From NCBI GenBank assembly GCA_029210775.1, contig JARGGI010000001.1, forward strand, positions 80,493-119,100: DNA of 38,608 bases, read 5' to 3'. This document shows, one piece after another, positions 26,071 to 35,074 of this stretch. A program made the position numbers and the translations under genes. Position 1 is the stretch's first letter. The number at the start of each line of letters is the position of its first letter. The notes under the pieces were generated by a model, which did not search any database, had not been told where the DNA came from, and saw only the letters and a program-made list of their open reading frames with translations. The stretch comes from Patescibacteria group bacterium. Lineage in GTDB: Bacteria; Patescibacteriota; Minisyncoccia; JAHIHE01; JAGLIN01.

Positions 26071-27597
26071 TTATTTCACTAATTCAATTCCCTTTTTAAT
26101 TCTTTTTAAAACCTTTTCTTTTCCCAAAACCGCCGCCACTTCAAATGGTCCAGGCGAGCCCTTGAGTCCAGTTAGTGCTACACGAAGTGGCCAAAGTAAT
26201 TTACCTGTGTTAATCCCCTCTTGTTCCATTAAATCTCGCAAAACTTTTTCTAAATTATTTTTAGTAAAATCTTTTTCGTTTAATTTTTCCAATTCCTGAT
26301 AAGCTAATTCTAAATTATTTTTTACTTCCTCAAAACTCATCTTCTTCCAAATTAACAATTCTTTTTCATATTCTAATTTATCAATAAAAATAAATTTTAC
26401 TGACTCCCCTATTTCGGAAAGTTTTTTCATTCGTTCCTGTTCTAATAAAACCACCTTTTTCAAATATTCAAAATCAATTTCTTCGCCAGTATTTAGTATT
26501 TTATATTTATTAGTGGAAATTTCCTTAATTAAATTTGCTTTAATCAAATATGGCATGCACAATTTAGTAAGTTTTGAGATGTCCATTTTTCGAACATATA
26601 ATCCATTTAACCAATCAAGTTTTTCGGTATTGAAAATTGCTCCTGTTTTATTCACACCAGATAAATCAAATCTTTTTATCATTTCTTCTAACGAAAATAT
26701 TTCCTCTTCCGTTTTTGGATTCCAGCCGAGTAACAATATAAAATTTAATAGCGCTTTTGGTAAATATCCTTTTTTTAAATAATCTTCCACCGCCACATCG
26801 CCTTGGCGTTTGCTAAGTTTGCTTTTATCAGGATTTAAAAGAAGAGGCAGATGCGTAAATTCCGGTGTTTTCCATCCAAAAGCTTTGTATAATAAAATAT
26901 GTTTTGGCGTGGATGGTAACCACTCCTCTCCGCGAATAACATGAGAAATATTCATTAGATGATCATCAACGACACTTGCCAAATGATAAGTTGGAAAACC
27001 ATCAGATTTCATTAAAACCTGATCATCAATTGTTTTGTTTTCAATTTTGATTTTTTTATAAATCAAATCCTCAAATTCTGTAAAACCTTCTTTGGGAACT
27101 TTTAATCGAACCACGTAAGGAGTTTTTTCATATAGAAGTTTTTGAACTTCGTCTTTGCTCAACTCCCTGCACTTTCCATCATACATAGGAGCCAATTTTT
27201 GCAATTGTTGTTTTTTTCTCATTTCTTCTAATCGTTCTTGACTACAAAAGCAATAATATGCATAATCTTTTTTTATAAGCTCATCTACATATTTTTGGTA
27301 TATATCCAGTCTCTGTGATTGAATATATGGTCCAAAATCGCCCTTTTGAAAGGTTTTATTGTCTTGATCGACAAATACTCCTTCTGAATACTCCAGGCCC
27401 ATAAAATCAAGAATTTTTACTAGATTTTCAATGGATCCCTCGACATATCTAGCTTTATCCGTGTCTTCAATGCGCAAGATGAAATCACCGTCATTGTGCT
27501 TGGCAAAAAGATAATTATATAAAACCGTTCGTAAACTTCCCATATGCAGATATCCTGTTGGACTCGGTGCAAATCTAACTCGTATTTTTTTTGACAT
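26071..27597 (-). CDS. gltX: Glutamate-tRNA ligase
   Basis: GltX charges tRNA-Glu, and in many bacteria also tRNA-Gln for later amidation. It has 508 residues, in the normal range. The HIGH-type motif is in FAPSPTGYLHMGSLRTVLYN (H18-M-G-S). The KMSKS-type motif is DKSKLSKRQGD near residue 260. The four cysteine or histidine zinc ligands are not obvious, apart from YYCFCS in the connecting domain. Whether it is discriminating cannot be read here. It has no Shine-Dalgarno sequence. Confidence 0.95.
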   Translation of the reverse strand: MSKKIRVRFAPSPTGYLHMGSLRTVLYNYLFAKHNDGDFILRIEDTDKARYVEGSIENLVKILDFMGLEYSEGVFVDQDNKTFQKGDFGPYIQSQRLDIYQKYVDELIKKDYAYYCFCSQERLEEMRKKQQLQKLAPMYDGKCRELSKDEVQKLLYEKTPYVVRLKVPKEGFTEFEDLIYKKIKIENKTIDDQVLMKSDGFPTYHLASVVDDHLMNISHVIRGEEWLPSTPKHILLYKAFGWKTPEFTHLPLLLNPDKSKLSKRQGDVAVEDYLKKGYLPKALLNFILLLGWNPKTEEEIFSLEEMIKRFDLSGVNKTGAIFNTEKLDWLNGLYVRKMDISKLTKLCMPYLIKANLIKEISTNKYKILNTGEEIDFEYLKKVVLLEQERMKKLSEIGESVKFIFIDKLEYEKELLIWKKMSFEEVKNNLELAYQELEKLNEKDFTKNNLEKVLRDLMEQEGINTGKLLWPLRVALTGLKGSPGPFEVAAVLGKEKVLKRIKKGIELVK

Positions 27598-27693: not shown

Positions 27694-27779
27694 GGAGGAA
27701 AGATATGTGGAATTTTGAAATATCAGAAACTTGTTTTAAAACATTTTTTTTTGGTTTCAGGATGACAATCAAATTATAA
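27694..27779 (+). CDS. Possible 24-residue peptide with strong Shine-Dalgarno
   Basis: GGAGG at 27694-27698 lies 6 bases before ATG at 27705. The frame runs 24 codons to TAA at 27777-27779: MWNFEISETCFK, then TFFFGFRMTIKL. The strong ribosome site stands out, because ordinary genes here lack one. The last third is encoded by a repeat remnant (27755-27767), so the peptide may be a truncated or fused remnant. No consensus promoter: TATAAA at 27676-27681 lacks a -35. It overlaps the end of the - strand pseudogene. Confidence 0.35.
27755..27767. repeat. Repeat fragment, ATGACA end
   Basis: TTTCAGGATGACA matches the right end of the palindromic repeats at 18381-18409 and 19954-19976. The left half is not recognisable. 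Confidence 0.45.
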
Positions 27780-28833
27780 CTCAACCTCACAGCAAAACTT
27801 TTTTAAAACACTTTTAGAATAAAATTTCGGTAACAATTTATTATACCATAAATCAAAAACGATTTCTTGGGAAGTGTTAGGTATTGCTCTCCTTTCTTTT
27901 TGGGCCAATTCGAAATTTATTTTGGTAGCGGTAAAATCTTCAATTTTGAGCATTTCGAGTCGCAAGAATAAATTTTTGTTTACTTTTTGAAGCTCCAATA
28001 AAAATCCTTCCAATTTTTCTTCGGCTAAACCTTCTTCATATACATAAGCTGGGACATAGGCAAAAAAATCAGCTCCGAGTTCAATCAGCAATTTTGCGAT
28101 TTCAAATTGTTCTAAGGAATATTTTTCTTCCGCACCTGTAATAATACTAAAATCTTCTTTCGTTGTCCTCTTGAAACATCCCAAAATTCCAACATTTTTT
28201 GAACTGATCACTTTTTGCAAATCTTTTTGATGTTTTCTGATGATTTTCAGAGTCGATAGATTTGTGTTAATCCAAAGATATGAATCTGGAGATTTTTTCA
28301 TCATCTCAGAATATACATCGATAATAATTTCTAAAATAATCATACACTTTCCAACGCTAATCCTGATAATATTCATGGGAGTTTTTGATTCTTTTTTAAT
28401 TCTAAAAAAAATTATCCACAATTTCTTTAGCACTAAAATATCTGCCGTGTTTCTCACTTGCCGAATTAAGTTCTCTGGGCACGAAACAATAATTGCACAT
28501 ATAATTGCAACCGGCAACTTGAATCGTAAAAACTTTTGTAAAATCTGATAAACTTCTTTTCAAAGCATTAAAAGCTGAATATGTTGGATTTTGAAATTCG
28601 ATTTTCTTAAATCCATTTTTGCCAAGCGCAAAGAATTTTCCTGACCATTTCCCTTTCTCTGTTTCACTTAATCATTTAATATCATCAATATAATCTTTAT
28701 ATCTAAAATATTTAGATAGAATCTTTCGTTCTCCTGGGTCTTGCCCTGTTCCGCTAATTTTTGCAAGCAAGTATTTATTATTTTTAATAAGTTTATTTCT
28801 TAAAGTATTTGCTTTTTTGTTTGGATTAATCAT
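27774..28833 (-). pseudogene. Disrupted radical SAM protein gene
   Basis: The reading runs from ATG at 28833 (MINPNKKANTLRNKLIKNNK) but is broken. An in-frame TGA at 28674-28672 falls between DYIDDIK and LSETEKGKWSGKFF. The same frame then continues through the cluster motif CNYMCNYCFVPREL (CxxxCxxC) and stops again at a run of eight T at about 28413-28406 (- strand). Removing one T restores the frame into FFRIKKESKTPMNIIRIS and on to the C-terminus. The usual SGGE motif is mutated to SVGK. It was thus once an enzyme of about 350 residues that used an iron-sulfur cluster and S-adenosylmethionine, and is now probably inactive. The reaction is unknown. Confidence 0.8.
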
Positions 28834-28863
28834 AAAAACTGTTTTATTTCTTTTTTTTAAAAT

Positions 28864-28892
28864 TTGTTTTATAGTATTAATTTTGATATAAT
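28864..28892 (+). promoter_or_regulatory. Promoter for the Cys-rich small protein
   Basis: TTGTTT at 28864-28869, 17 bases, then TATAAT at 28887-28892 with TGA directly before it (extended -10). Transcription would begin near 28899, right at the Shine-Dalgarno sequence (28901-28907), leaving almost no leader. Confidence 0.65.
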
Positions 28893-28900
28893 AAAAAAAG

Positions 28901-29155
28901 AGGAGGGCATCAAATATTTTAGATAAAAAATATTGGCACGGAGATTTCAATGCGGGACTATATTGTGATCGTTGTGAAAACAAAATACCAAAAAGGCCCA
29001 AGAAGGGAGAAGTATGTGTAAATTGTAAAGGAGAATTTACTGGAAAATCCTTTGGATGTGAAGATAAAAAATGCACATCTGAAGGAGCTGAATTTTTTGG
29101 TATTGAAAATTGTATTACATCAAATTGTCGAAATTGTATGAAAATATACAATTAA
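28901..29155 (+). CDS. Cys-rich putative zinc protein, 79 residues, probable AUU start
   Basis: AGGAGGG at 28901-28907 is followed after 8 bases by ATT at 28916, the only near-start codon in a frame that is closed upstream by TAA at 28892-28894. The frame then runs 79 codons to TAA at 29153. It encodes nine cysteines: CDRC (17-20), CVNC (34-37), C48-x4-C53, C66 and CRNC (71-74), with many Lys between. This looks like two or three zinc ribbons or knuckles. There is no ATG before M75. It has its own promoter. The opposite strand shows only a shadow frame. I do not know the family; a nucleic-acid- or protein-binding role is possible. Confidence 0.6.
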   Translation, partial: RRASNILDKKYWHGDFNAGLYCDRCENKIPKRPKKGEVCVNCKGEFTGKSFGCEDKKCTSEGAEFFGIENCITSNCRNCMKIYN

Positions 29156-29203
29156 TCAAACTTAGTATAAACAATTCAAATATCATAAAATTGAGGTTTA
29201 ATT

Positions 29204-29980
29204 CTATAACACTGGAATTTTACCTTTTTTATTTTTTATAATTATCCATCCGAATTTTATTGTTGCATTATAAATCCGTTTTATTCTTTTTGGCTCTTGA
29301 AATAATCTATATAACCATTCAAATCCTAATCTTTGAAAAATTTTTGGAGCACGTTTTATCTTGCCAGAAATAAAATCAAATGACCCACCTACTCCGATTG
29401 CAAGTTTTACGCTTGGCATTTTTTTTATGTTTTTGCTAATCCAAATCTCTTGTTTTGGAGATCCAAAGGCGACAAACAAAATACCAGGTTTAGTGATATT
29501 TATTTTTTTTATTAATTTATCGTTTTCAATTTTATAATTATCCGACATAAAATCTTTAATTCCATCTTCTGCGCCAATAATTTTTAGATTGGGATATTTT
29601 TTACATAATATTTCAGAAGTTTTTTTTGCAATTCCCTCTTTCGCTCCTAATAAATAAATTTTCAGATCGTTTATATATTTTTCTTTACAGATTTTTTCAA
29701 TCAAATCAATTCCTGTAATTTTTTCTGGTAATTTTTTATGGTAAATATATTTATAAGCTAATAATACTCCAGTTCCATCAGGAATAACAAGATTTGCTTT
29801 GTTAATTATACTCTTGAACAGAGTATTTTCTTGAGCCTCAATAATCATTTCTGGATTAAGCGTTACGATGTAGTGTTGATCATTTAATAATAAAAAACCC
29901 TTGATTTTTTCAAGAACTTCTATAGTTGTTATTTTGTCAATTTTCACATCTAAAATTCTAAAATTAATATCTTTCGTCAT
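29204..29980 (-). CDS. WecG/TagA/CpsF family glycosyltransferase
   Basis: This family adds a sugar (such as N-acetylmannosamine) to a lipid-linked intermediate for wall or surface polymers. It has 258 residues, a normal length. Family motifs: TLNPEMIIEA, IPDGTGVLLA, KITGIDLI, IYLLGA, FVAFGSPKQEIWI, GVGGSFDFISGKIKRAP and the end segment RLGFEWLYRLFQEPKR. The gap to thpR is 9 bases, so the pair is one operon. Confidence 0.93.
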   Translation of the reverse strand: MTKDINFRILDVKIDKITTIEVLEKIKGFLLLNDQHYIVTLNPEMIIEAQENTLFKSIINKANLVIPDGTGVLLAYKYIYHKKLPEKITGIDLIEKICKEKYINDLKIYLLGAKEGIAKKTSEILCKKYPNLKIIGAEDGIKDFMSDNYKIENDKLIKKINITKPGILFVAFGSPKQEIWISKNIKKMPSVKLAIGVGGSFDFISGKIKRAPKIFQRLGFEWLYRLFQEPKRIKRIYNATIKFGWIIIKNKKGKIPVL

Positions 29981-34289: not shown

Positions 34290-34637
34290 TTAAGTTAAGA
34301 TTTGATCTAATACAACTATTATTGAATATGAAGCTAATATTAAAATTAAGCCCAAAAGTGTCCACGTAATCATTTTTTTTGCAGTTGCAACTTTTTGTTC
34401 ATCTCCTGAAGAAGTAGTATAAATAATTCCGCCAGCAATTAACATAAGAAGAGCTAAGGATCCTGCAACTCCTAGGGTCGATAATAGAAAATTTTCAACT
34501 AATTTGGAAAAATCACTAGTTGATATTGGATTTGGTATATTAATAGGGGTTTGTGCTTTAACATAGCCTATTTCTATAATAAATAATGAAACAAATATAC
34601 TACAAAGTTTAATTGTTTTTTTTGTGATGTTTTTCAT
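34290..34637 (-). CDS. T4SS-type pilin-like membrane protein, copy 1
   Basis: The 115 residues comprise a signal peptide (KLCSIFVSLFIIEIGYVKAQ, residues 10-29), then two membrane helices at about 50-73 and 90-112 separated by the loop TSSGDEQKVATAKKM. GG-I-x-Y-TTSSGDE and the AKKMITWTLLGLILI stretch are typical of the TrbC/VirB2-like 'T4SS_pilin' family common in CPR genomes. I chose the ATG at 34637; a longer in-frame start reads into duplicated DNA. It differs from copy 2 at N3K, P35T, S53W and T54A (this copy first). Confidence 0.82.
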   Translation of the reverse strand: MKNITKKTIKLCSIFVSLFIIEIGYVKAQTPINIPNPISTSDFSKLVENFLLSTLGVAGSLALLMLIAGGIIYTTSSGDEQKVATAKKMITWTLLGLILILASYSIIVVLDQILT

Positions 34638-34645
34638 ATTTTTAT

Positions 34646-34701
34646 AGCGTATCCTTTTTACCATTCCAATTTAATACGATTATATAAACTTCTTTTTGCA
34701 T
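34646..34701 (-). pseudogene. Truncated start of the glycosyltransferase gene (duplication scar)
   Basis: The ATG at 34701 opens MQKEVYIIVLNWNGKKDTL and then TAA a few bases after the junction. It is an exact copy of the first 56 bases of the glycosyltransferase gene and was left by the tandem duplication. It lies directly upstream of pilin copy 1 and might still be translated into a 19-residue peptide. Confidence 0.8.
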
Positions 34702-34726
34702 ATTTATTGTTTTAAGTTTAATAAAA

Positions 34727-35074
34727 TTAAGTTAAGATTTGATCTAATACAACTATTATTGAATATGAAGCTAATATTAAAATTAAGCCCAAAAGTGTCC
34801 ACGTAATCATTTTTTTTGCAGTTGCAACTTTTTGTTCATCTCCTGAAGAAGTAGTATAAATAATTCCGCCAGCAATTAACATAAGAAGAGCTAAGGATCC
34901 TGCAACTCCTAGGGCCCATAATAGAAAATTTTCAACTAATTTGGAAAAATCACTAGTTGATATTGGATTTGTTATATTAATAGGGGTTTGTGCTTTAACA
35001 TAGCCTATTTCTATAATAAATAATGAAACAAATATACTACAAAGTTTAATTGTTTTTTTTGTGATTTTTTTCAT
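34727..35074 (-). CDS. T4SS-type pilin-like membrane protein, copy 2
   Basis: The paralogue of the previous pilin, 115 residues, 99 % identical at DNA level over the unit. It has the same signal peptide, the two helices and the loop TSSGDEQKVATAKKM. It carries K3, T35, W53 and A54, the latter two at the start of the first membrane helix. It lies 36 bases after the amidase gene in the same operon, so it is likely the older location. Confidence 0.82.
   Translation of the reverse strand: MKKITKKTIKLCSIFVSLFIIEIGYVKAQTPINITNPISTSDFSKLVENFLLWALGVAGSLALLMLIAGGIIYTTSSGDEQKVATAKKMITWTLLGLILILASYSIIVVLDQILT

Follow-up and report, generated by a model that had tools for sequence, protein, structure and literature searches.

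The gene infC, which encodes IF3, is known to start at AUU, AUC or AUA in Escherichia coli and in other bacteria (PMC5472188). In Streptomyces, the GTC start of sigR is repressed by IF3 in vivo, so that the restraint exerted by this factor is also found outside infC (PMC5472188). The AUU start of pcnB in E. coli was proven to limit expression (Binns and Masters 2002, as cited in PMC13009471). The closest described case is cvfC1 from Staphylococcus aureus, which encodes a putative zinc-finger protein of 61 amino acids and begins with AUU behind a very strong Shine-Dalgarno sequence. This start, proven by initiation profiling and reporters, gives about 10% of the AUG output in poor medium; it is conserved among staphylococci, and cvfC1 is the first gene of its operon (PMC13009471). 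A literature search on start codons in Patescibacteria found no paper.

The locus described here lies in a window of 38,608 nucleotides, the whole stretch of DNA that was analysed, which is part of a patescibacterial genome of 1.17 Mb in 65 contigs. It carries a small cysteine-rich open reading frame (ORF), referred to below as the Cys gene. Like cvfC1, it would encode a small putative zinc-binding protein (zinc ribbon here, zinc finger in cvfC1) and it combines AUU with a very strong Shine-Dalgarno sequence. However, the AUU of cvfC1 is conserved, proven and operon-leading, and no homology between the two proteins is claimed. The Cys gene also shares a near-cognate AUH codon with infC, including the infC of its own family, which has AUH at the start position. 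Nevertheless, infC is an essential, self-regulated gene with a conserved AUH, whereas the relatives of the Cys gene begin with ATG or TTG; furthermore, the infC genes of the family have no evident Shine-Dalgarno sequence whereas the Cys gene has AGGAGGG. The likeness with sigR is limited to a non-canonical start, which limits synthesis in sigR but is GTC and belongs to a different gene, while pcnB shares AUU itself but encodes the poly(A) polymerase and has a proven start.

The Cys gene and its relatives

The features of the locus, numbered from the first nucleotide of the window, are the following.

26071 to 27597, minus strand: gltX, a syntenic marker (context comparison)
27774 to 28833, minus strand: radical-SAM gene, divergent, a pseudogene in the window genome (TGA, frameshift, GGE to VGK, changes at invariant sites)
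28864 to 28892, plus strand: predicted sigma-70-type promoter, TTGTTT, 17 nt, TATAAT, with an extended -10 TG (22 of 29 positions shared by G000, G001, G004 and G008)
28901 to 28907, plus strand: Shine-Dalgarno sequence AGGAGGG (also AGGAGGG in G001 and G004, AAGGAG in G008)
28916 to 28918, plus strand: ATT, the sole well-spaced near-cognate start codon of the frame (the relatives have ATG or TTG just behind the Shine-Dalgarno sequence)
28916 to 29155 with the stop codon, plus strand: ORF of 79 codons, putative double zinc-ribbon protein (CxxC, CxxC, Cx4C, CxxC; homologues, invariant residues)
28950 to 28952, plus strand: off-frame ATG with GGAG upstream, usable as a start only if a base has been lost between it and the first cysteine
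29190 to 29230: hairpin of terminator type, lying between the Cys gene and the convergent wecG-type gene (-11.1 kcal/mol, z -4.6)
29204 to 29980, minus strand: WecG/TagA/CpsF-family glycosyltransferase gene, convergent, a syntenic marker (context comparison)

The frame is closed on its 5' side by an in-frame TAA (28892-28894) and ends at TAA (29153-29155); no in-frame ATG, GTG or TTG occurs before codon 75, the ATG of NCMKIYN. The first-pass annotation, which had described this TAA-closed frame of 79 codons and ATT 28916 as its only near-start codon at the right distance, read the sequence correctly. Its count of nine cysteines was also right (three CxxC, one Cx4C and a lone C66), and the paired pattern is kept in the homologues, in which eight of the nine are conserved but C66 is not. 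The GC content at third positions is low (0.165 versus 0.37 and 0.39), which counts in favour of a functional gene.

As that annotation had proposed, homologues were looked for in 92 relatives, and three genomes, all of the same family, were found to carry one: G004 (L014/L003), G001 (L015/L005) and G008 (L018/L004). These three were confirmed by a profile search covering 384 genomes of the class, which gave nothing convincing elsewhere, and scans of genome contigs and viral contigs with the window protein found no relative, the alignment being too diverged to serve as query for the contig scan. The homologues are only 21-28% identical to the window protein; ten positions are nonetheless invariant (C17, C20, C34, C37, F41, C48, C53, F60, C71 and C74). 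In all four genomes the divergent radical-SAM gene lies on one side and the convergent WecG/TagA/CpsF-type gene on the other; in the window and in G008, gltX follows beyond the radical-SAM gene, and it lies outside the matches for G001 and G004. On this comparative evidence, the Cys ORF is a genuine, stand-alone gene of firm identity, because homologues with the same cysteine pattern, synteny and promoter exist in three further genomes. As judged from these searches, its protein family is found here in four genomes only, all from one Paceibacterota/Parcubacteria family. In G008 the homologue contains one more CxxC...Cx4C unit in its interior, which looks like a partial duplication of the ribbon.

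The possibility that the frame is open by chance can thus be dismissed: AT-rich DNA does occasionally leave long frames (19 of at least 79 codons in 4000 dinucleotide shuffles of 28895-29155, none of the 19 with nine cysteines), but the homologues refute it, and the synteny and the conserved promoter also speak against it.

The promoter consists of TTGTTT (28864-28869) and of TATAAT (28887-28892) within the extended -10 TGA-TATAAT. A generic promoter scan did not list it because its -35 matches TTGACA only partly, and it is the conservation of the sequence that is the evidence for this predicted promoter. The earlier claim of an extended -10 promoter adjoining AGGAGGG is thereby upheld, both by the sequence and by its conservation in four genomes. 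The predicted 5' end of the transcript lies a few nucleotides upstream of AGGAGGG. Hairpins equivalent to that of the window are found 3' of the gene in G001 (z -4.5) and G004 (z -3.5), with a weaker one in G008. The comparison therefore shows a gene with its own predicted promoter, a very short leader starting almost at the Shine-Dalgarno sequence and its own terminator hairpin. AGGAGG alone is frequent (353 occurrences within 1.08 Mb of the source genome); the significance of AGGAGGG here is due to its position between the conserved promoter and the frame, not to the motif itself. RNA structure across the start is weak (z -0.16), which leaves a masking hairpin unsupported, and Rfam has no match within 28600-29400.

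The paired cysteine ligands, with eight invariant cysteines across the homologues, are as expected for a zinc-ribbon protein, and two bound zinc ions are predicted because there are four conserved cysteine pairs. Pfam matches are all sub-threshold, and neither NCBIfam nor PADLOC gives anything above cut-off for the protein. Searches of the PDB by sequence and by fold gave weak and unspecific zinc-site matches, with weak hits of the eL43 type; the structure model has a mean pLDDT of 70.6 (medium confidence) and matches no fold at E<=0.001. It might be guessed that the ribbon binds nucleic acid or protein.

Proposed near-cognate starts in the window lineage

It should be emphasized that infC was located in each of the 14 family genomes and that the first codon of its conserved Ile-Ala pair, which marks the start position, is always AUH: AUA in nine, AUC in four and AUU in one. 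In G002 and G008, three codons, none of them start-like, separate the upstream stop from AUA. This pattern suggests that the family of the window genome has probably kept near-cognate initiation for infC and, because the codon is kept across the lineage, that IF3-type control of start codons is probably present there. The infC loci (L044, L040-L053) apparently have no Shine-Dalgarno sequence, and several closely follow a tRNA-like 3' end.

The Cys gene was also compared with the rest of its genome by scanning 1.08 Mb, with 2495 stop-to-stop frames of at least 70 codons, for frames that are closed upstream, have a strong Shine-Dalgarno sequence at close spacing and lack a usable canonical start. 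The Cys ORF was the sole convincing AGGAGG/ATT case; the few others listed were ATA or weaker Shine-Dalgarno cases without signs of being genes. Start-codon statistics from a crude gene caller, whose scoring biases them, were excluded as evidence. On the minus strand of L063, around 14456, AAGGAG and GTG-ATG-TAA precede a frame opened by ATT, possibly another lesion of a start region in the same genome.

In the three relatives, the Cys gene begins with ATG behind AAGGAG (G008) or with TTG six bases behind AGGAGGG (G001 and G004), the latter two also joining a strong Shine-Dalgarno sequence to a weak start. Alignment of the homologues thus locates the predicted start just 3' of the Shine-Dalgarno sequence, where the window has its ATT, 8 nt behind AGGAGGG or 9 nt behind AGGAGG. 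None of the three has ATT or another near-cognate start, so AUU at this position is peculiar to the window lineage. The homologues also reveal neither a conserved upstream ATG nor a frameshift that would explain the missing start, either of which would have contradicted the first-pass annotation.

Weak initiation at AUU or loss of the start codon

The reading tentatively preferred here is that the Cys gene is weakly expressed from AUU. In the window lineage, AUU would have replaced the ATG or TTG of the relatives; ribosomes held by the strong AGGAGGG would initiate weakly at 28916, and the output of the gene would be kept low as a result. The lean towards function comes from the intact frame, from the strong Shine-Dalgarno sequence with a well-spaced near-cognate codon and no usable canonical start, and from the precedents of infC and cvfC1. 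Conservation of the near-cognate start in relatives, which is seen for infC and cvfC1 and is supporting evidence without being strictly required, is missing, since the homologues have ATG or TTG. These starts and the decay of the divergent neighbour argue against initiation at AUU. Furthermore, the functional AUU starts known are far rarer than pseudogenes, which also counts against this reading, and an AUH codon at usable spacing is not rare in such AT-rich DNA, with an estimated chance of about 20%.

The main alternative, a quite credible one, rated only slightly below AUU initiation, is that the canonical start has gone, that the Cys gene has entered early decay together with the radical-SAM gene and that ATT is incidental. 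It is a serious rival because the divergent radical-SAM neighbour, intact in eight genomes of the family, is clearly dead in the window genome. Trp codon 54 has become TGA (28672-28674), a frameshift lies in an A8/T8 run (28404-28411), and GGE has become VGK, with both G160 and E162 altered. Moreover, of 212 positions without variation in the relatives, 32 are changed (15.1%), versus 4.5-6.6% in intact orthologues. Reassignment of TGA was rejected as the origin of the stop, the second lesion being a frameshift and the other genes of the window reading normally with table 11. The radical-SAM gene itself scores above no curated NCBIfam cut-off.

Other genomes of the family bear on the same alternative. 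In G006 the radical-SAM gene is broken too, with fragments on two contigs and stops, and no Cys gene was found; the Cys gene, undetected in 10 of the 14 family genomes, is dispensable, and every homologue has the canonical start that the window gene lacks. On the other hand, the two genes are not strictly tied, five genomes having an intact radical-SAM gene and no Cys gene. That these five relatives keep the enzyme alone also leaves a direct role of the Cys protein with it unsupported.

Against loss of the start, the frame, all the conserved cysteines, the Shine-Dalgarno sequence and the promoter are intact, and the well-spaced ATT would be a coincidence, although a mild one. No further lesion and no lost conserved residue is found in the Cys ORF, but early decay would look alike. 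At the rates of decay of the radical-SAM gene, which shows an excess of about 9% in changes at invariant sites and two disabling lesions per 1.06 kb, the estimated chance that the frame stays intact and all ten invariant residues survive is about 20% (0.9^10 for the residues, multiplied by exp(-0.45) for the lesions). The lesion-free frame thus favours function only mildly.

A sequence error, a mixed consensus or another start is improbable. The true start could carry a wrong base, or a base could be missing between ATG 28950 and the first cysteine, so that the protein would have about 67 residues. The assembly is indeed fragmented (65 contigs), the relatives are metagenome-assembled genomes, and this ATG has an SD-like GGAG 6 nt upstream and stands about as far from the first cysteine as the start of G008. 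However, other genes nearby have open, intact frames, and the conserved spacing of promoter, Shine-Dalgarno sequence and start points to about 28914-28917, not to 28950. In addition, no ATG, GTG or TTG occurs in any frame from the start region to the A6 run; a simple indel therefore could not restore a start near the main Shine-Dalgarno sequence, and a frameshift of this kind was rejected.

If weak AUU initiation, the preferred reading, applies, the gene would respond to the level or activity of IF3 like infC; initiation at AUU and any dependence on IF3 are both putative. It is conceivable but rather doubtful that a change from a canonical to an AUU start, specific to this lineage, has placed the gene under IF3-dependent restraint, independently of cvfC1 but in parallel with it. 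The AUU start put forward in the first-pass annotation is plausible, given AUH at infC in the family and the precedent of cvfC1; that annotation missed the pseudogene next door, and the homologues have ATG or TTG. Its further proposal, a sensor of initiation stringency, is unsupported beyond analogy.

The Cys gene, a member of a tiny protein family found here in one bacterial family only, is a candidate AUU-start gene outside infC in Patescibacteria. Such genes would be systematically missed, because gene callers drop frames without ATG, GTG or TTG. If it is decaying instead, it illustrates cleanly that the condition of the neighbouring genes has to be examined when a start codon is missing. 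Elsewhere in the window, two near-identical small ORFs resembling membrane proteins (124 and 115 amino acids) lie in tandem on the minus strand at 34290-35074, apparently from a recent duplication.
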